Assembly: GCF_000337495.1 (NCBI RefSeq)
Contig: NZ_AOIS01000054.1
Span: 46,142-89,719, forward strand
Reading direction: 5' to 3'
Length of the DNA: 43,578 nucleotides
Origin: Haloterrigena salina JCM 13891
Lineage (GTDB): Archaea; Halobacteriota; Halobacteria; Halobacteriales; Natrialbaceae
The position numbers and the translations under genes were made by a program. The notes under the pieces were generated by a model. It saw nothing but the letters and a program-made list of their open reading frames with translations. It made no database searches and was not told the origin of the DNA. Below, piece by piece: positions 4,077-12,583 of the stretch; the stretch's first letter is position 1, and every line of letters starts with the position of its first letter.

Positions 4077-4127
4077 TTTAGCGTGCCGCAATACAGCGGC
4101 GTCACGAATGGTAGGCAAAGTAGCTAT

Positions 4128-4193
4128 CAGCGGAAGTGGTGGGGTTAGGGGTTTATAAAAGATAGTAAACAGCGGAAGCAGCGGAACCAAAGG
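4128..4193 (+). repeat. ORB-like repeats upstream of orc1/cdc6
   Basis: Two plus-strand copies of the origin repeat lie just before the initiator gene. At 4128-4151, CAGCGGAAGTGGTGGGG is followed by a G-run. At 4168-4193 a degenerate copy holds a doubled AGCGGAA core. An A/T run (TTTATAAAA, 4152-4160) lies between them. They could serve the origin, autoregulation of the gene, or both. Confidence 0.6.
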
Positions 4194-4223
4194 TTAAGTG
4201 GGATGGCTGAAATTTAGTTGCCA

Positions 4224-5411
4224 ATGACTGACTTTGGATTTAAACCGACCGGACGCATCTTTGATGAGCGAGAAGCGTTACTCGAGGAGTGGACGCCGAA
4301 GAACCTCGTCGGTCGGGATGAAGAACTCTCACAATACCACGCTGCACTCCAGCCAGTAATCGAAGGTGAAACACCCTCTAACATTTTCCTCTACGGAAAA
4401 AGTGGCGTCGGCAAAACTGCAGCGACTCGGTTCCTTCTCCGACTTCTCGAACGGGACGCAGAAGATGTTGACGGCCTCGATTTACACACCGTTGAAGTCA
4501 ACTGTGACGGCCTCAACTCTAGTTACCAAACTGGTGTTGCGCTCGTAAACGAACTCCGTGCTCCAGCGAATCAAATCTCCAATACTGGCTATCCGCAAGC
4601 GTCGGTCTACCAATTTCTATTCGACGAACTCGAGAAACTCGGTGGCACTGTTCTCATCGTCCTCGACGAAGTGGACCATATTCAAGATGATAGTCTACTG
4701 TACAAACTCCCACGTGCCCGCTCGAACGGCGACGTTACGAACTCACGGATCGGTGTCATTGGCATTTCGAACGATTTGAATTTTCGCAACCGACTGAGTT
4801 CGAAGGTCCGCTCCAGTCTCTGTGAAAAAGAGGTCTCGTTTAGCGCATACGATGCGAACGAACTCCAAGAAGTACTTCGTCAACGCAAAGAAGTCGCCTT
4901 CAAAGATGGTGTACTTGAGGAAGGGGTCATCGAAATGTGTGCTGCCTATGGTGCGAAAGACTCCGGAGACGCTCGGAAAGCATTGGATCTACTGCTCGAA
5001 AGCGGAGACATCGCTCGCGAAAGCAACGATGAGTTTGTTACGGAGGCCCACGTCCGCAATGCGAGGAAACGCCTCCAGACCGATCAAGTGATCGAGGGAA
5101 TCAGTAACTACTCGAGACACGGTCAACTGGTCCTCTGGGCACTTACAATTCTGGAAGAAGAGGGGGAAACACCAGCACGAACGCGGGATATCCGGGAATC
5201 ATACGAAAAACTCTGCAGTCGTGATGGAAGCGATCCTATTTCTAATAGGGCAGTCCGCGAATATCTAGCAGAATTAGAAACGCTCGGACTTATCTCATCG
5301 ACGCAGATCAATCGCGGAATAAGTGGCGGAAAATTCAAAGAGCACAAACTAGCTCAGTCGGTTTCGAGTGTGAAAAGTGGATTAGAAGAGTCTCTCGAGT
5401 CGACGCCCTGA
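4224..5411 (+). CDS. Orc1/Cdc6 family replication initiator
   Basis: This AAA+ ATPase would bind origin repeats and load the replicative helicase. The 395-residue product has Walker A GKSGVGKT (58-65), Walker B LIVLDEVD (144-151), sensor 1 IGVIGISND (176-184) and a C-terminal winged-helix region (about 300-395), the usual archaeal Orc1 layout and length. ATG 4224 is preferred; a TTG two codons upstream is also open. The gene is flanked on both sides by copies of one ORB-like repeat, so it probably serves this origin. Its codon use is much AT-richer (roughly half GC) than the pilus and helicase genes on either side, a sign of separate descent or transfer. Haloarchaea carry many orc paralogues, so a paralogue number cannot be given. 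Confidence 0.93.
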   Translation: MTDFGFKPTGRIFDEREALLEEWTPKNLVGRDEELSQYHAALQPVIEGETPSNIFLYGKSGVGKTAATRFLLRLLERDAEDVDGLDLHTVEVNCDGLNSSYQTGVALVNELRAPANQISNTGYPQASVYQFLFDELEKLGGTVLIVLDEVDHIQDDSLLYKLPRARSNGDVTNSRIGVIGISNDLNFRNRLSSKVRSSLCEKEVSFSAYDANELQEVLRQRKEVAFKDGVLEEGVIEMCAAYGAKDSGDARKALDLLLESGDIARESNDEFVTEAHVRNARKRLQTDQVIEGISNYSRHGQLVLWALTILEEEGETPARTRDIRESYEKLCSRDGSDPISNRAVREYLAELETLGLISSTQINRGISGGKFKEHKLAQSVSSVKSGLEESLESTP

Positions 5412-5415
5412 CACA

Positions 5416-5474
5416 CCCACCCCACTGGTTCCGCTGTTAGGCTAACGCACCCACCCCATCGGTTCCGCTGTTAG
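5416..5474 (-). repeat. Pair of ORB-like repeats, left flank of the unwinding region
   Basis: Two minus-strand copies, 5416-5441 and 5450-5474, read CTAACAGCGGAACC followed by a GGGGTGGGT run. The second is one base shorter in the spacer. They begin a few bases after the orc1 stop codon and point away from the AT-rich stretch. Confidence 0.78.
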
Positions 5475-5510
5475 ACTCGAACAGGTGAACTCACTCACGG
5501 CCTAGCTCTC

Positions 5511-5590
5511 ATAACGGCTATTAAAATCAGTACTAATAAGTAATATAGGAGAAAATTAATCCATAGTACGTTCATCACAGAACAAAAATA
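5511..5590. other. Probable duplex unwinding element of the origin
   Basis: This roughly 80-base stretch is mostly A and T, in strong contrast to its surroundings. It sits between an inverted pair of ORB-like repeats (minus strand at 5416-5474, plus strand at 5628-5700). That is the known layout of haloarchaeal origins. No ORF crosses it convincingly. Confidence 0.65.
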
Positions 5591-5610
5591 CCCTCCCCAT
5601 AGGGAGGGTA
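5589..5610. repeat. Perfect inverted repeat at the edge of the unwinding region
   Basis: TACCCTCCC (5589-5597) and GGGAGGGTA (5602-5610) form a 9-bp perfect stem with a 4-base loop. It lies between the AT-rich stretch and the right-hand ORB-like copies. It could be an origin structural element or a protein site; no T-run follows, so a terminator is less likely. Confidence 0.6.
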
Positions 5611-5627
5611 GTGTAGTCGTTCATTCG

Positions 5628-5700
5628 CTAACAGCGGAACCAGTGGGGTGGGTGGGTCCACAGAAGACACTTTCATTGGAAACAGCGGAACTGGTGGGTA
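5628..5700 (+). repeat. Pair of ORB-like repeats, right flank of the unwinding region
   Basis: CTAACAGCGGAACCAGTGGG continues as a G-rich run at 5628-5653, and AACAGCGGAACTGGTGGGTA lies at 5681-5700. Both are on the plus strand, so they mirror the left pair across the AT-rich stretch. Confidence 0.78.
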
Positions 5701-6069
5701 AGAGGTTTCGACCAAATGGAATGCATATCGTAGTACAACTTCTGAACTCTGCCAGGTTCCATTTTGGCTCATTACGAGGAATTCTCTACCCGATATATTA
5801 GTTACATCTCACTCATTCCTTGATGCCTAGAACAGATACCTCAGCGATATTTGAATAGATAGCATCAGTAGATCATCGTTGTATAGATGTCTAGTCATAA
5901 CTCAACAGAGTTCCCGTAATCAATCTTCACTCGGTACGAGGGGTGTGGGTGACCGCAAATTCGCTCGGTGCCTGGGTGTCTCGGACACGGTCCCCAGTGG
6001 TCTGAAGAATGTACAGCCCCGACCTCGCTATTCGACAATTGCAGTAGTAGATAGACACCCGTCCGTGCG

Positions 6070-6138
6070 CTAACAGCGGAACTGGTGGGGTGGGAGCACC
6101 CCCGAAATACGCGACAGCGGAAGCAACGGAACTGGTGG
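6070..6138 (+). repeat. Distal ORB-like repeats
   Basis: A near-perfect copy, CTAACAGCGGAACTGGTGGG with further Gs, occupies 6070-6094. A degenerate copy with a doubled core is at 6113-6138 and resembles the doubled copy at 4168-4193. They lie about 400 bases beyond the central origin. Confidence 0.7.
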
Positions 6139-6427: not shown

Positions 6428-8407
6428 GTGACCGACGAACGTGCTTCGGAAGCGACTGGTGGCGAGAGCCAGCGACCCGAGGATCCAGCGGCCGACGGGG
6501 ACAACGATCCCACCGGAGACGAGCAGTTCACGCTCGCGGACTTCCACGACGCATCGCAGGAGGCTGGTCGACCCGTGCTCACCGCCGCGGCACTCTCCCG
6601 CGCGCTCGAACTTCCCCAGGAACGGGCCCGCAACGCGCTCGAGACCCTCGCGGACCGGAACGAGGTCGAACGACTCTCCGTCGAGACGGATCCCGTCGTC
6701 TGGTATCCCAGCGAACTCGAGGATCTGACCGACCGGGAGCGCGTCGTCGTCTTTCCGAAGCGCCGCGAGATCATCGTCGACCGGCCGGACCAGTTCACTC
6801 GCGCACAGCTCGCCCAGTTCGCCCACCTCGCGGACGGGAACGGCGACCAGGGGTATCGCTACGTCGTCAGGCCCGAGGACATCTGGCAGGCGCCCCACGA
6901 CTCCTGGGAGAACCTGGCCCGGACGATGCGCCAGGCCCTCGGACAGCGCTCGGAGGGACTCGAGGAGTGGGTCCGCAGCCAGTGGGATCGGGCCCACCAG
7001 TTCCGGCTGGCGACCCACGAGGACGGCTACACCGTTCTCGAAGCGAAGAGCCCCGAAGTGATGGGGAACGTCGCCCGCCAGAAGCTCGACGAGGAACACG
7101 TCCACGCGCCGATTTCGGATACCGAGGACTGGGTCCGGGAGGGCTCGGAAGCCGCGATCAAGCGGATCCTCTACGAGGCGGGCTACCCGGTACAGGATCA
7201 CCGCGAACTCGAGTCCGGCGAGGAACTTCCCATCGATCTCGGGGTTCGACTGCGGGACTACCAGCGGACCTGGGTCGATCGGTTCGCGGAGGCCGGCGAG
7301 GGCGTCTTCGTCGGCCCGCCGGGCAGCGGGAAAACGGTCGCCGCGATGGGGGCGATGGCCCACGTCGAGGGCGAAACCCTGATTCTGGTACCGAGTCGCG
7401 ATCTGGCCCGACAGTGGGCCGACACGATCCTCGAGTACACGTCGCTCGAACCGGAGCAGATCGGCCAGTACCACGGGGGGCGCAAGGAGGTCCGCCCGGT
7501 GACGATCGCGACCTACCAGATCGCGGGGATGGATCGGCACCGCTCGCTGTTCGACGACCGCGAGTGGGGGCTGGTGATCTTCGACGAGTGCCAGCACGTC
7601 CCGTCGGACGTCTACCGCCGGAGTACCCATCTGCAGTCCAAACACCGGCTCGGCCTCTCTGCGAGCCCGATCCGGGAGGACGACCGTCAGCAGGAGATCT
7701 TCACCCTCGTGGGCCCGCCGATCGGCACCGACTGGGAGGCGCTGTTCGAGGCCGGCTTCGTCGCCGAACCGGAACTCGAGATCCGCTACGTTCCGTGGGG
7801 CGACGACGAGCAGGGGAACGCCTACGCCTCCGCGGACGGCCAGGAGAAGTACCGGATCGCCGCGAAGAACCGCGGGAAGGTCGACGAAGTGCGATACCTG
7901 CTGTCGGCCCACCCCGACTCGAAGGCGCTGGTGTTCGTCGACTACCTAGAACAGGGGAAAGAGCTCTCGAGCGCGCTGGACGTCCCCTTCCTCAGCGGCG
8001 AGACGCCCCACCACGAGCGCCGGCGGTTGCTCGACGAGTTCCGCCGGAACGAGCGGGACCTCCTCATCGTTTCGCGGGTCGGCGACGAGGGGATCGACCT
8101 CCCGACGGCCGACCTGGCGATCGTCGCCTCGGGGCTCGGCGGCTCGAGGCGGCAGGGAACCCAGCGGGCCGGGCGGACGATGCGCCCCGCCGGCGGCGCG
8201 CTCGTCTACGTGCTCGCGACGCGAGGGACCCGCGAGGAGGACTTCGCCCGCAAACAGCTCCAGCACCTCGGTCGCAAGGGGATGACGATCCGCGAGCAGA
8301 ACGTCGAACGCGGCGAGGGCTCCGAAGCCGACGATGTCGACGAAACCGATGACACCGGCACGAACGACGAGGCTGACGGGGTCGACGGGAGCGTCGCCGA
8401 CGAGTAG
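6428..8407 (+). CDS. Superfamily 2 DNA helicase, XPB/Rad25-like
   Basis: The 659-residue product has the SF2 helicase motifs: RLRDYQ just before motif I, Walker A GPPGSGKT near residues 296-303, motif II DECQH near 386-390, motif III-like GLSASPIRED, and motif VI QRAGRTMRP near 579. The DECQ box and the RED-like sequence after motif III resemble XPB-type helicases of repair or transcription. Before the motor are an acidic leader (1-40), a probable winged helix (about 35-105) and an alpha/beta region of unknown role. The C-terminus is an acidic tail. The start is a GTG right after the origin repeats. It is GC-rich like the rest of the chromosome. It converges on the par genes, and the two stop codons are adjacent. 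A link to the origin is possible but unproven. Confidence 0.88.
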   Translation: MTDERASEATGGESQRPEDPAADGDNDPTGDEQFTLADFHDASQEAGRPVLTAAALSRALELPQERARNALETLADRNEVERLSVETDPVVWYPSELEDLTDRERVVVFPKRREIIVDRPDQFTRAQLAQFAHLADGNGDQGYRYVVRPEDIWQAPHDSWENLARTMRQALGQRSEGLEEWVRSQWDRAHQFRLATHEDGYTVLEAKSPEVMGNVARQKLDEEHVHAPISDTEDWVREGSEAAIKRILYEAGYPVQDHRELESGEELPIDLGVRLRDYQRTWVDRFAEAGEGVFVGPPGSGKTVAAMGAMAHVEGETLILVPSRDLARQWADTILEYTSLEPEQIGQYHGGRKEVRPVTIATYQIAGMDRHRSLFDDREWGLVIFDECQHVPSDVYRRSTHLQSKHRLGLSASPIREDDRQQEIFTLVGPPIGTDWEALFEAGFVAEPELEIRYVPWGDDEQGNAYASADGQEKYRIAAKNRGKVDEVRYLLSAHPDSKALVFVDYLEQGKELSSALDVPFLSGETPHHERRRLLDEFRRNERDLLIVSRVGDEGIDLPTADLAIVASGLGGSRRQGTQRAGRTMRPAGGALVYVLATRGTREEDFARKQLQHLGRKGMTIREQNVERGEGSEADDVDETDDTGTNDEADGVDGSVADE

Positions 8408-8413
8408 CTACTC
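8402..8413. repeat. Palindrome containing both convergent stop codons
   Basis: GAGTAGCTACTC is a perfect 12-bp palindrome. The helicase TAG is at 8405-8407 and the minus-strand TAG of the next gene at 8408-8410, so the two genes meet with no gap. It may be chance or a minimal bidirectional terminator. Confidence 0.45.
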
Positions 8414-8878
8414 CTCTCGAGCCTCGAGGACCTCGTCGATCACGCCCTCGGTGTCCCCGGCCGCGAGCCGAAAGACGGCGTCGTAGAACTCGCGACCGGT
8501 CAGATCGCGAACGTCGTGGTCCGTCCGCAGCTGTGCATCTACTAACGCGCGCGCGTCGTCCAGATCGGCGAGCGTCTCCGGACGGACGTACACCGTCTTC
8601 TTCTCGGTCGCGTCGAACGGGAACGCCGTCGGATCGTTATCGCCGGTATCGTCCTCACCATCGGCATCGGATTCCGCCGTCTCGGCGCTCGAGTCCGACT
8701 CGGACCCGCTCGAGTCGCCGCCGGTCTCGGAGTCGGATACGGACGGATCGTCTTCGACCGTCGGCGAATCGGTCTTCTTGCTCGAGGACTCGTCGGCCGC
8801 CGATTCGGCGTCCGACCCCTCGCCGGGGTCGTCCTCGACGGCATCGCTCAGTCCGGCGAAGCGGTTGTCATCGGGCAT
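8408..8878 (-). CDS. Acidic ParA-partner protein with RHH-like C-terminus
   Basis: The 156-residue product has three parts: a short N-terminal motif MPDDNRFAGL, a long Ser/Asp/Glu-rich linker (about 11-85) that should be unstructured, and a compact C-terminal region (about 90-150). The C-terminal region begins with a strand-like KTVYVRPET followed by two helices, the pattern of a ribbon-helix-helix DNA-binding fold. ATG 8878 is chosen because GGAGG at 8887-8891 sits 8 bases upstream; a GTG at 8885-8887 overlaps that site. The ParA stop (8868-8870) lies inside this gene, so the two are translationally coupled. Known ParA/RHH partition systems have partners with flexible N-termini that stimulate the ATPase; assigning this role is inference. 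Confidence 0.65.
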   Translation of the reverse strand: MPDDNRFAGLSDAVEDDPGEGSDAESAADESSSKKTDSPTVEDDPSVSDSETGGDSSGSESDSSAETAESDADGEDDTGDNDPTAFPFDATEKKTVYVRPETLADLDDARALVDAQLRTDHDVRDLTGREFYDAVFRLAAGDTEGVIDEVLEAREE

Positions 8879-9704
8879 CGTCGACACCTCCGCGCTCGAC
8901 GATGGCGGCGAGTTCGTCCAACCGGTCGAGCATGTCGTTGTCGGGGTCGTACTCGGCGAGCGGGACGCCCTCGCGCCAGGCCCGGCGGAAGGCGATCCGC
9001 TCGCGCAGGCCGGGGCCGGGCGAGTCCGGATCGTCGAAGTGCTCCGAGCGGGCGAACTGGGGGAGGAACTCGCCGAACTGGGACTCCTCTAAGTCGGTGA
9101 TGATGCGCTTTTCCTCGTTGTCGCCGGCCAGCGAGTTGGGGACGATCGCCATGATGTCGAGATCGATCTCCTTGCGGATCGGCCCGATCTGCTGGGTGTA
9201 CATCCGCTCGAAGCCGCTGACGCTGGGCTCGCTCATCCGCAGCGGGACGATGACGTTCTGGGTGGAGATGAGCGAGGCGTCGGCCAGCGGCCCGAGGTTC
9301 GGCGGCGAGTCGACGACGACGTAGTCGTAGGTCTCGCCGAGCACCGGATCGACGATCTCGTTTCGGATCCAGAGTTCGCCGAAGGTCGCGCTGCGGATGC
9401 TGTTCTCGACGCTGTCTAGATCCTCGTGGGCCGGTAGGACGTCGAACGCGCCAGCCGAGCGGATCACGTCGCCGAGCGTCGTCTCGGTACTGTCCTCTAA
9501 GACGTCCCCGATGTGAACGTCGCTCGTGTAGGCGTCGCTCAGGCCGACGCCTTCGGTGGCGTTGCCCTGCTGGTCTAAGTCCACGAGCAGGACGTCGTTG
9601 TCGCGGTTGGCGAGTCGTTCGGCGAGGTTGATCGCGAGGGTCGTCTTGCCGACGCCGCCCTTCTGCAGGGCGACGCTGACGGCGCGTGGGGTTTCAGTCG
9701 TCAT
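8868..9704 (-). CDS. parA: ParA/Soj/MinD-type ATPase (partition ATPase)
   Basis: The 278-residue cytoplasmic ATPase has the deviant Walker A KGGVGKTT at residues 15-22 (signature Lys15 and catalytic Lys20), the switch I sequence LVDLDQQGNATEG and Walker B DYVVVDSPPNLG. It has no N-terminal HTH, so it is of the short ParA type that usually relies on a partner for DNA recognition. ATG 9704 gives the standard start (MTTETPRAVSVALQ); the frame stays open upstream but runs into the repeat array. It is the first gene of a two-gene operon with the acidic partner and overlaps it by 11 bases. Array A of the 9-bp repeats begins 44 bases upstream, which suggests autoregulation, as in known par operons. 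Confidence 0.9.
   Translation of the reverse strand: MTTETPRAVSVALQKGGVGKTTLAINLAERLANRDNDVLLVDLDQQGNATEGVGLSDAYTSDVHIGDVLEDSTETTLGDVIRSAGAFDVLPAHEDLDSVENSIRSATFGELWIRNEIVDPVLGETYDYVVVDSPPNLGPLADASLISTQNVIVPLRMSEPSVSGFERMYTQQIGPIRKEIDLDIMAIVPNSLAGDNEEKRIITDLEESQFGEFLPQFARSEHFDDPDSPGPGLRERIAFRRAWREGVPLAEYDPDNDMLDRLDELAAIVERGGVDDAR
8887..8891 (-). promoter_or_regulatory. Shine-Dalgarno site inside parA for its partner
   Basis: On the minus strand GGAGG lies 8 bases before ATG 8878, within the last codons of the ParA gene. It decides the start of the partner gene and indicates coupled translation of the two proteins. Confidence 0.6.
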
Positions 9705-9747
9705 GCGTGGGAAGGTCCGTCGCCGCGGCCGATCTCGAGCGGGAGCG

Positions 9748-9819
9748 GTGCGAACGGTTCGAACGTTGGAAACCGCTTCCACCGTGTACACTGTGTAGAA
9801 TGTGCAAACCGTCTTGAAT
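9748..9819. repeat. 9-bp array A (8 units), proximal to parA
   Basis: Eight units are in phase, including GTGCGAACG, GTTCGAACG, GTGTACACT, GTGTAGAAT and GTGCAAACC. The middle units match the consensus best. The array starts 44 bases before the ParA ATG. Confidence 0.7.
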
Positions 9820-9901
9820 CCGCGGGCGGTCGGCCCCGATCGGTTCGAAGCGGGATTCCGCGGACGGCGTTCCGCGGTCGCTGCGGACACGGTCGTCCAC
9901 G

Positions 9902-9982
9902 GTCCGAACGTCGGAAGCAGTCTAAACGGTTCGGGCCTCGAGCACGGTTCAAACGGTGTCCACAGTTTAGACTGTGTCGGTC
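9902..9982. repeat. 9-bp array B (9 units)
   Basis: Nine units are in phase. GTCTAAACG, GTTCAAACG and GTTTAGACT are strong; GTTCGGGCC and TCGAGCACG are degenerate but keep the register. Confidence 0.65.
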
Positions 9983-10008
9983 GAGCGGGATCTGGTCGGT
10001 AGCCGTCC

Positions 10009-10062
10009 GCGCGAACGTCGCTCGAGGTGGAAACCGTCTACACAGTGGAGACATTGGATCAG
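10009..10062. repeat. 9-bp array C (6 units)
   Basis: Six units are in phase: GCGCGAACG, a weak unit, GTGGAAACC, GTCTACACA, GTGGAGACA and the weaker TTGGATCAG. Confidence 0.62.
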
Positions 10063-10135
10063 TCACGGTCGTGATCGACGCGATCGGACGCGACGAGTAA
10101 CACGCCTATCATTCGGGTAAGATAACTTAACAGTA

Positions 10136-10180
10136 GTGGAAACAGTCTACACATTCTATACTGTGTGAACGGTGTGCCGT
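10136..10180. repeat. 9-bp array D (5 units)
   Basis: The units are GTGGAAACA, GTCTACACA, TTCTATACT, GTGTGAACG and GTGTGCCGT. The first two nearly repeat those of array C. Confidence 0.65.
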
Positions 10181-10189
10181 CCCATATGA

Positions 10190-10216
10190 CTCGACACAGT
10201 GTAGACGGTGTAGTTC
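10190..10216. repeat. 9-bp array E (3 units)
   Basis: The units are CTCGACACA, GTGTAGACG and GTGTAGTTC. The first 17 bases are identical to the start of array H. Confidence 0.62.
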
Positions 10217-10273
10217 TCAGCCGGTCTTCAATCAGGATACCAGATTTACAATCGGTTATTGGTATTTTAAGAG

Positions 10274-10363
10274 GTTTACACAGTTTAGACATTGTAGAAA
10301 GTGTAGAGCGTGTGCAAATCTCAAGCGGTGCACACAGCCTACGAATTGTACACGGTACTCGTA
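10274..10363. repeat. 9-bp array F (10 units, the longest)
   Basis: GTTTACACA, GTTTAGACA, TTGTAGAAA, GTGTAGAGC and GTGTGCAAA are followed by a weak unit, then GTGCACACA, GCCTACGAA, TTGTACACG and a last weak unit. The register does not slip over 90 bases. Confidence 0.72.
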
Positions 10364-10425
10364 CGGCGAGGAACCGAACTGAAACGCCGAGGCGACCGAC
10401 TCCTGTCAGTCGAACTCGAGGGCGA

Positions 10426-10470
10426 CACTCCACTGTTTAGAATGTTCACACAGTTTGAACTGTCTAATAT
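10426..10470. repeat. 9-bp array G (5 units)
   Basis: The units are CACTCCACT, GTTTAGAAT, GTTCACACA, GTTTGAACT and GTCTAATAT. Confidence 0.65.
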
Positions 10471-10565
10471 TCCAGGCGGTATACGAAACCGACAGCTCGA
10501 GCAGATACAGTTGTACAGGACGTCAGGTTGGTAGTATGAAAATCGATTCATTCGTACGGAAGATA

Positions 10566-10610
10566 CTCGACACAGTGTAGACAGTTCACACATTGTACAC
10601 CGCCTCGACT
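10566..10610. repeat. 9-bp array H (5 units), proximal to the HerA-like gene
   Basis: The units are CTCGACACA, GTGTAGACA, GTTCACACA, TTGTACACC and GCCTCGACT. The array ends about 125 bases before the GTG start of the ATPase gene. Confidence 0.68.
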
Positions 10611-10626
10611 GTGAGAGGAAACAGCG

Positions 10627-10645
10627 ACCGGTCCGGAGGACCGGT
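10627..10645. repeat. Perfect inverted repeat upstream of the HerA-like gene
   Basis: ACCGGTCC and GGACCGGT are separated by GGA. It lies between array H and the ATPase gene and is unrelated in sequence to the 9-bp units. It could be an operator for that gene; a hairpin terminator is also possible. Confidence 0.5.
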
Positions 10646-10700
10646 GGAATCACCGGACGAGGCCAATATTCAAGGTGCCGTATTGGGAGTGTACCCATAT

Positions 10701-10739
10701 ATGACTACGTCGCGCGCGCTCGAGGTGAGTGGTCGGTGA
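10701..10739 (+). CDS. Possible 12-codon leader peptide overlapping the HerA-like start
   Basis: ATG 10701 opens a 12-codon frame (MTTSRALEVSGR) whose TGA at 10737-10739 overlaps the GTG start at 10736. A GAGGTG Shine-Dalgarno for the main gene lies inside it (10723-10728). The arrangement would couple translation of the leader to the main gene. It is short enough to be chance. Confidence 0.3.
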   Translation: MTTSRALEVSGR

Positions 10740-12583
10740 GCGACCAGCGCCAGATTCTGGTCGGCGAAACCGACGACGGGTCGGAGCTGCGGCTCCCGGT
10801 CGTCGAACTGCTGACCGGTCGCGGGTTCGTCACCGGCAAGTCGGGATCCGGGAAGTCGAACACCGCGTCGGTCATCGCCGAGGAGTTACTCGAGGCCGGC
10901 TTCCCCCTCCTGATCGTCGACACCGACGGCGAGTACTACGGGCTCAAAGAGGAGTACGAGATGCTCCACGCCGGCGCCGACGAGGAGTGCGACATCCAGA
11001 TCGGCCCGGAGCACGCCGAACAGATGGCGAGCCTCGCACTCGAGGAGAACGTCCCGATCATTCTCGACGTCTCGGGGTACCTCGACGAGGACGTGGCCGA
11101 CGAACTGCTGCGCAAGATCGCTCGCCAACTGTTCGTCAAGGAGAAGAAGATGAAGAAGCCCTTCCTCCTCGTGGTCGAGGAGGTCCACGAGTACATCCCG
11201 GAGGGTGGCGGCGTCGGCGAGACGGGGAACCTGCTGATCAAGATCAGCAAGCGCGGCCGCAAACACGGGCTGGGCATTCTGGGGATCAGCCAGCGGCCCG
11301 CCGACGTCAAGAAGGACTTCATCACGCAGGCCAACTGGCTCGTCTGGCACCGGCTGACCTGGGACAACGACACCAAGGTCGTCGGGCGGATCATCGACAC
11401 CGAGTACTCGGAACTCGTCTCCGAACTGAACGACGGGCAGGCGTTCGTCCAGACCGACTGGACCGAGGTCGACGTCCGGAAGGTCCAGTTCCGCCGCAAG
11501 CGGACCTTCGACGCGGGCGCGACCCCCGGACTCGACGACTTCGAGCGACCCGAACTGAAGTCGGTCTCCGACGCGCTGGTCGGTGACCTCGAGAACATCT
11601 CCGAGCGCAAGGAGCGCGAGCAGGACCGGATCAACGAACTCGAGAACGAACTCGAGAAGAAGGAAAAGCGGATCGAGACCCTGGAGGACGAACTCGAGTC
11701 GGCGCGGGACGTCTCGTCGGCGGCCAAGCAGATGGCCGACGCGCTGACCGGGAAGGAGACGGTCCAGGCCCAACTCGGCGGCGGCAGCGACGAGGAACTG
11801 CGTCGCCTCCACGACGAGATCGTCGACCTCGAGGACGAGCGCGACGAGCTTCGAGCGGAACTCGAGGAGCGAGACGAGCGCATCGAGACGCTGGAGACGA
11901 CCCTCGAGTCGCGAACGGAGACCGTCGAGCGACTCCGCGAGGAAAACGAGCGGCTTCTGGATCGCGTTCGCGAACTCGAGGAGACCGAGTCCGAGCCCGA
12001 GACGACCACGACGGAGTCGGACGACGAGATCGTCCACGCCGGCGGCGACGCCATCGAGTTCGGGTTCACGTCGATCCGCGAAGAACTCGAGAAGCGGGAC
12101 GAGGCGACGAGCGACGGCGACCGCGACAGGACCACGCGAGACGACACCGAGCGGACGGGGTTCGAACGGAACGCGGTCGAACGGAACAAGGCCGAATCGA
12201 ATGCGGCCGAACGGAACAAGACCGAACCGAACGCGGCCGAACCAAACGAGGCCGAGCGAGACGAACGGGCGACAACTGCGAGCGAAGGCCCGTCGTTCGA
12301 AGCCCTGTTCGAGGGCGATTGGATCGACGAGCGACTCGAGACGGCGGCCGGGCAGTCCCAGTGTACGGCGGCGACCGGACGACGCGCGCTGGCCGTCCTG
12401 GCCCGAGACGGACCGCTCGAGACGGCGGTCCTCGCCGAACGGGTCGATCGATCGACGGTCGCCGTTCAGAGTCTCCTCTCGGAACTGCGGACCGAGGGCG
12501 TCCTCGATCGGCCCACCGAACGGACCTACACGCTCAGTGACGACGTCCGCGGGGAGCTGACCGCCGCGGCGCGGGTCGACTAA
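10736..12583 (+). CDS. HerA/DUF87-type ATPase with coiled coil and winged helix
   Basis: The 615-residue protein belongs to the FtsK/HerA motor superfamily. Walker A GKSGSGKSN is at 34-42, Walker B LLVVEEVHEY at 144-153, and GISQRPADV with WHRLTWDNDTK follows as in HerA-type motors. After the roughly 270-residue motor come a long charged coiled coil (about 285-440), an acidic linker with tandem pentapeptides (about 475-510) and a C-terminal winged helix (about 545-610). The start is GTG 10736, with GAGGTG 8 bases upstream. Proteins of this class pump or remodel double-stranded DNA. The gene diverges from parA across the repeat region, so a role in segregation or in clearing DNA at the origin is plausible but inferred. 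No nurA or mre11 gene is adjacent, unlike classical herA. Confidence 0.85.
   Translation: MSDQRQILVGETDDGSELRLPVVELLTGRGFVTGKSGSGKSNTASVIAEELLEAGFPLLIVDTDGEYYGLKEEYEMLHAGADEECDIQIGPEHAEQMASLALEENVPIILDVSGYLDEDVADELLRKIARQLFVKEKKMKKPFLLVVEEVHEYIPEGGGVGETGNLLIKISKRGRKHGLGILGISQRPADVKKDFITQANWLVWHRLTWDNDTKVVGRIIDTEYSELVSELNDGQAFVQTDWTEVDVRKVQFRRKRTFDAGATPGLDDFERPELKSVSDALVGDLENISERKEREQDRINELENELEKKEKRIETLEDELESARDVSSAAKQMADALTGKETVQAQLGGGSDEELRRLHDEIVDLEDERDELRAELEERDERIETLETTLESRTETVERLREENERLLDRVRELEETESEPETTTTESDDEIVHAGGDAIEFGFTSIREELEKRDEATSDGDRDRTTRDDTERTGFERNAVERNKAESNAAERNKTEPNAAEPNEAERDERATTASEGPSFEALFEGDWIDERLETAAGQSQCTAATGRRALAVLARDGPLETAVLAERVDRSTVAVQSLLSELRTEGVLDRPTERTYTLSDDVRGELTAAARVD
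12163..12259 (+). repeat. Tandem 15-bp repeats within the HerA-like gene
   Basis: About six 15-bp units encode pentapeptides such as NAVER, NKAES, NAAER, NKTEP and NAAEP in the linker before the winged helix. Such tandem coding repeats can vary in number between strains. Confidence 0.7.

Follow-up and report, generated by a model that had tools for sequence, protein, structure and literature searches.

Between parA and a HerA-like gene of Haloterrigena salina JCM 13891 we find an array of short palindromes which keeps a 9-bp register within each of eight clusters. Related genes across the haloarchaea show this arrangement too, and the array is therefore very probably a handle by which plasmids are shared between daughter cells, its role in segregation being inferred. 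The reading that we hold with good, though not complete, confidence is that of a ParABS-type (type Ib-like) partition locus of a plasmid or secondary replicon, in which the array, coated by the partner protein encoded next to parA, serves as both centromere and operator; that the protein binds and functions in this way is an inference. DNA segregation in archaea outside the Sulfolobales is largely open, and a review called the archaeal picture elusive (PMC5120986).

The stretch analysed (43,578 nucleotides, hereafter the window) comes from a draft genome of 4.8 Mb, in which its contig measures 181 kb. BLAST revealed 95% identity over the entire par region to plasmid pHTS171 (171 kb) of H. salifodinae and 88% identity to NC_013747 (172 kb) of H. 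turkmenica, and orthologues of parA mostly reside on contigs of 130-270 kb. Judged by these relatives, the window belongs to a large plasmid or to a secondary replicon and not to the main chromosome. Its parA gene (8868-9704, minus strand) encodes a Walker-type ATPase of 278 aa with a KGGVGKT motif, which matches the ParA family and has no N-terminal DNA-binding domain (AAA_31 from residue 7, E = 5e-35). The gene for the partner (8408-8887, minus strand; 159 aa), the proposed binder of the array for which there are no binding data, overlaps the 3' end of parA by 20 nt. An XPB/Rad25-like helicase gene (6428-8407) is convergent with the partner gene and ends one base short of it. Beyond the array follows the HerA-like gene (10736-12583, plus strand; DUF87, E = 6e-12), whose coiled-coil part contains tandem 15-bp repeats in frame (12163-12255). 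The same replicon carries an orc1/cdc6 replication initiator gene (4218-5411, plus strand; TIGR02928, E = 4e-128) about 4 kb from the array, and orc1/cdc6 is also close by in the Haloferax plasmids described below. ORB-like repeats (CAGCGGAA...) surround this gene at 4121-4178 and 5408-6138. Those at 5408-6138 are inverted repeats of the ACAGCGGAACYRGTGGGGTGGG type (18-31 nt, 89-97% complementary, no strand assigned) and differ in sequence from the array units, so the array is not of the ORB type. The ORB-like repeats near orc1/cdc6 are a candidate for the replication origin of the plasmid.

The interval separating parA from the HerA-like gene measures 1,035 bp, of which about 860 bp (9748-10610) belong to the array. 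The latter was delineated with an independent segmenter using a PWM learned from 27 orthologous loci, which converged on G-T-N-Y-R-N-A-C plus one free base and equals its own reverse complement. Segmentation gave 47 units of GTNYRNAC plus one base in eight clusters, to which no strand is assigned: A (9748-9819, 8 units, score 56.5), B (9893-9973, 9 units, 42.8), C (10027-10053, 3 units, 26.0), D (10136-10180, 5 units, 34.3), E (10190-10216, 3 units, 16.3), F (10265-10354, 10 units, 59.2), G (10435-10470, 4 units, 30.3) and H (10566-10610, 5 units, 34.8). The phase is not common between clusters. Upstream of parA, 43 bp separate the start codon from cluster A, which probably overlaps the parA promoter, itself a prediction; cluster H lies closest to the HerA-like gene. 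A preliminary description, made from the sequence alone, had placed about 50 units in eight 9-bp-phased clusters at this site. Its first and last base of the array are identical to ours, and the array F which it had seen in register for 90 bases is exactly 90 bp long. Its statement that the 8-base core is self-complementary holds for the palindromic consensus, the centre of the unit being YR rather than strictly TA. Outside the clusters, the window yielded merely four short segments of 2-3 units, which scored 12-15 where the clusters scored 16-59, and the reversed window segmented at equal threshold yielded none.

The lag-9 signal over shuffled DNA that the preliminary description had proposed as a check is present. 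The intergenic region (9701-10735) matches itself at lag 9 in a fraction of 0.357 compared with 0.253 in dinucleotide-preserving shuffles (z = 8.0, reached by 0 of 500), and at lag 18 the z-score is 5.2 (again 0 of 500). Coding DNA gives lag-3 signals and nine is divisible by three, which could suggest chance or an artefact of codon periodicity. For this reason we used a contrast of lags 9/18/27 against other multiples of three (6/12/15/21/24/30). It reached 6.8 at the array locus, whereas the maximum among 2,871 control windows of 900 bp was 2.9. Moreover, the mean lag spectra of the Natrialbaceae loci, of the Haloferax group and of eleven divergent loci all peak at 9, 18, 27, 36, 45 and 54. 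Together with the shuffles, this refutes an origin of the register in chance or codon structure.

Within the Natrialbaceae, parA with at least 78% identity is found in 27 of 125 genomes (this one included; 78-99% identity in the 26 others). All 27 carry the array directly upstream of parA, as the proposal of a site belonging to parA had led one to look for; in one of them (G100:C4) the record ends just upstream of parA and the array resumes at its other end. Neighbouring units in the 27 loci are spaced by 9 bp in 526 cases, by 18 bp in 131 and by 27 bp in 51, compared with two cases each of 8 bp and 10 bp. Of the 27 genomes with a parA orthologue, 22 contain a strict four-unit pattern, versus 2 of the 98 without (p = 1e-17); the backward control never shows it. 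In one of these two genomes the pattern belongs to the same locus, lying on a contig that is truncated. G008 is a genuine exception, with arrays but without a close ParA; its arrays are located on a 1.1-Mb replicon (L317, G008:C2:905000-913000; L318, 1085000-1093000). Between the window and H. turkmenica, the GT/AC positions of the units changed at 20 of 188 sites, compared with 151 of 606 in the DNA between clusters (p = 2e-5), a difference showing the units, at the level of sequence comparison, to be conserved and under selection.

Seven contigs were scanned from end to end. Besides the main array, each contains a single remote one of 4-8 units, and two contigs (G024:C2 and G026:C4) show weak additional segments; the same contigs reversed contained no arrays. 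In this genome the satellite comprises six units (L151, G000:C54:132648-132701) and lies 77 kb from the main array, outside the window. Relative to the main array, satellites sit 42-56% of the way around the contig. The intergenic DNA that holds them is conserved and, in the Haloterrigena plasmids, separates a large gene of about 700 codons from genes for membrane, CopG-like and MinD-like proteins. In G008, the equivalent location on the 1.1-Mb replicon is also occupied by an array. The position of the satellite can be plain synteny because its neighbours are conserved; the idea that it marks the replication terminus was dropped, GC skew being uninformative as well.

The arrangement extends beyond the family. 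Plasmids of Haloferax and Halostella, in which ParA and partner have diverged, possess the array with lag-9 z-scores of 6.6-10.4. Upstream of parA in Haloferax gibbonsii, H. mediterranei, H. lucentense and H. larsenii the scores are 6.7-10.4, with segments of up to 30 units; in H. gibbonsii, 270 bp keep a single register. The far-side gene in Haloferax is msrA; the HerA-like gene adjoins the array in Natrialbaceae loci but not there, and thus the array tracks parA and its partner. A set of 55 more distant ParA-partner loci, counting those of Haloferax and Halostella, was compared with the control maximum of the periodicity contrast, and 29 lie above it. The other 26, several of them on chromosome-size contigs, do not exceed it, and a weak or missing array usually, though not always, goes along with a contig of that size. 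No array was found at ParAs of 53-55% identity (L111-113). This genome encodes three further ParAs; two are without an array, and the contrast of the third (L002, 2.0) is inside the control range. Likewise, the haloviruses phiH, PhiCh1 and ChaoS9 (L339, L340, L341) have parA and an RHH-looking downstream gene, and no 9-bp array is present in the viral DNA checked.

While the lattice stays constant, the word written on it changes. A cyclic nine-state hidden Markov model without prior motif, fitted to the divergent loci, returned a palindromic 8-mer plus spacer in most of them. The words differ between ParA-partner families (e.g. TTGTACAA, ATGTACAT, AGGTACCT), and the 9-bp lattice and usually the 8-bp palindrome are kept. 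The unit reads [GT]TGTACA[AC] in Haloferax, GTCTAGAC in Halostella, TTCTACAA in L307, ATGTACAT in L308-310, AGGTACCT or AGCTACCT in L306 and L320-323 and TCGTACGA in L337. Families with a non-palindromic unit, L312 and L332 among them, are few. A constant lattice with a word that varies between partner families is expected of a co-evolving protein and site. The residue two positions before the tyrosine of the partner's candidate beta strand was compared with the outer bases of the unit: T or S goes with GT or TT, A or P with AG, and G with AT (L306, L303, L320-323, L307, L308-310, L337). There are too few independent families for a test, and the covariation of unit sequence with residues of this putative strand is no more than suggestive. 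As far as these comparisons go, the feature is not peculiar to the present locus and recurs across haloarchaea with different unit sequences. Whether it constitutes a class-wide type of archaeal centromere, with a fixed lattice of 9-bp palindromes whose word shifts with the partner so that each replicon of a multi-replicon haloarchaeal cell has its own address read by its own partner, is nearly an even question, and we lean slightly against affirming it.

The partner gene lies downstream of parA and overlaps it in all 33 loci extracted. In plasmid records its product is annotated as "hypothetical protein" only, yet the family is class-wide, with members in 175 of 391 haloarchaeal genomes. The protein begins with a conserved peptide, PDDNRFAGL (residues 5-13; 8849-8875, minus strand), in which P, N, R, F, A and G are invariant among 18 aligned members and which is a candidate for a ParA-stimulating peptide, the role towards ParA being inferred. 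This P-x-x-N-R-F-A-G element is followed by an acidic linker of variable length and by a conserved C-terminal domain with KKTVYVRPETL... and then TGREFYDAV. KKTVYVR (8582-8602, minus strand), whose Y is invariant and whose R nearly so in 27 divergent members, is a candidate for the DNA-reading beta strand, an assignment taken from the layout of RHH proteins. Of the RHH-like ParA partner put forward in the preliminary description, the layout could be sustained: N-terminal peptide, acidic linker and C-terminal domain resemble those of RHH centromere-binding proteins. Its fold found no support and is unproven. Profile searches against PDB, Pfam and PHROGs gave no match and no statistical tie to a known RHH family, the partner profiles A1 and A2 did not match SegB among PDB chains at E up to 10, and comparison with a CopG-like protein gave nothing significant. 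A single-sequence AlphaFold model was poor (pLDDT 59), lacked the expected beta strand and produced no fold match in Foldseek. Since neither these searches nor structure prediction established RHH, we regard the resemblance as a match of layout only. A ParB-like HTH/CTPase domain was not detected with Pfam and NCBIfam, and a scan of viral contigs with the partner found none.

We infer the following mode of action. A partner dimer would sit on each 8-bp palindrome, and neighbouring dimers, 9 bp apart, would touch across the 1-bp spacer, cooperatively filling a cluster as a continuous protein-DNA rod. The eight clusters may then assemble into one large partition complex. Its many N-terminal NRFAG peptides would stimulate the ATPase of ParA bound to bulk chromosomal DNA, by which plasmid copies could be moved or tethered. 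Binding at cluster A probably represses parA and partner, because this cluster sits on the probable parA promoter.

In organisation the locus resembles the type Ib systems of bacteria, here represented by delta/omega/parS of pSM19035 (PMC9499535). In anatomy alone, the locus meets the type Ib features of a ParA without N-terminal DNA-binding domain, an overlapping downstream partner and upstream tandem short boxes. Both systems combine a ParA lacking an HTH domain with a small separate centromere-binding protein (proposed in our case) and a centromere of contiguous short repeats. In pSM19035, the RHH ParB needs four or more contiguous repeats to activate ParA (PMC9499535); six of the eight clusters here have at least four units. 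The six parS sites on that one plasmid may be compared with the satellite arrays. In contrast, its repeats are 7-bp heptads in either orientation, whereas here a palindromic 8-bp core plus one base gives a period of 9 in all groups; moreover, the host is an archaeon and the partner has no detectable sequence relation to a solved RHH protein. MetJ is an RHH protein whose dimers bind tandem short palindromes, the met boxes, cooperatively, and these boxes are 8 bp long and abut without spacer. The tandem boxes and a beta-strand layout similar to KKTVYVR are shared, but MetJ is a repressor without ParA partner and the spacing here is 9 bp (526 pairs versus two at 8 bp). Archaeal precedents differ in other ways. 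SegAB of the Sulfolobales (PMC12284271) also pairs a ParA-like ATPase with a small downstream partner (SegB, a DNA-binding RHH protein), and has binding sites both upstream of the operon and at other places on the replicon. However, these are few, separate, imperfect palindromes of 13 bp with an AGA-S-TCT core and not GTNYRNAC in 9-bp phase, SegAB is chromosomal, and the present partner matches no solved structure in sequence. Plasmid pNOB8 likewise partitions with ParA, but by the three-gene AspA-ParB-ParA cassette including a ParB (PMC5120986) instead of two genes plus tandem palindromes. In Deinococcus radiodurans, the repeat arrays cisII/cisMP directly upstream of parAB work as parS on secondary replicons; unlike ours, they consist of 18-bp and 14-bp iterons in 8 to 11 copies, bound by ParB2/ParB3 and overlapping DnaA boxes (PMC7671480).

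RHH regulators often bind tandem boxes, and the array could be mainly an operator through which the partner autorepresses parA and the HerA-like gene, segregation proceeding without a dedicated centromere. The closeness of cluster A to the parA start and the intergenic position of satellites beside other genes would fit. We nevertheless consider this unlikely, for about 860 bp with 47 units, and 270 bp in a single register in H. gibbonsii, are far beyond the needs of simple repression, and the array stays while the far-side gene differs between families. That a protein other than the partner coats the array is less likely still. One might think of chromatin proteins, of the HerA-like ATPase or of the CopG-like protein whose gene lies about 1 kb from the satellite, given that the fold of the partner is unproven and that satellites lie near CopG-like, membrane-protein and MinD-like genes. 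But no HerA gene adjoins the Haloferax arrays, partner families differ in their unit word, and no such array accompanies ParAs of 53-55% identity.

There is only a slight chance that the repeats are origin iterons to which Orc1/Cdc6 or some other initiator binds, be it instead of partition or in addition to it. The nearby orc1/cdc6 gene speaks for it, as do the D. radiodurans iterons, which are origin and parS at once (PMC7671480). Against it, typical ORB-like inverted repeats of unrelated sequence flank cdc6 itself, the array is located at parA and not at cdc6 4 kb away, and the unit sequence differs between ParA-partner families. The partition locus remains our preferred reading.

The RHH-type ParABS mode as such is known. 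Undescribed in the open-access literature that we found are the lattice of palindromes every 9 bp, the partner family, which has no name, and the change of the word across the class while the lattice stays constant. In this literature, which leaves subscription papers mostly uncovered, no haloarchaeal centromere, parS or partition site turned up, in agreement with the preliminary description, whose author knew of no such array. Palindromes phased at 9 bp upstream of parA serve as a single rule that yields candidate centromeres in many haloarchaeal replicons and points to a previously unnamed protein family as the binder, in the absence of binding data; tractable Haloferax strains are suited for testing it. 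Such arrays would supply a stabilising element for haloarchaeal vectors and a model of how co-resident plasmids keep separate centromere addresses. Apart from the partition locus, the window contains, on a replicon of plasmid size, a run of genes for sugar nucleotides, glycosyltransferases and related enzymes (17961-43495), which suggests plasmid-borne synthesis of surface glycans.
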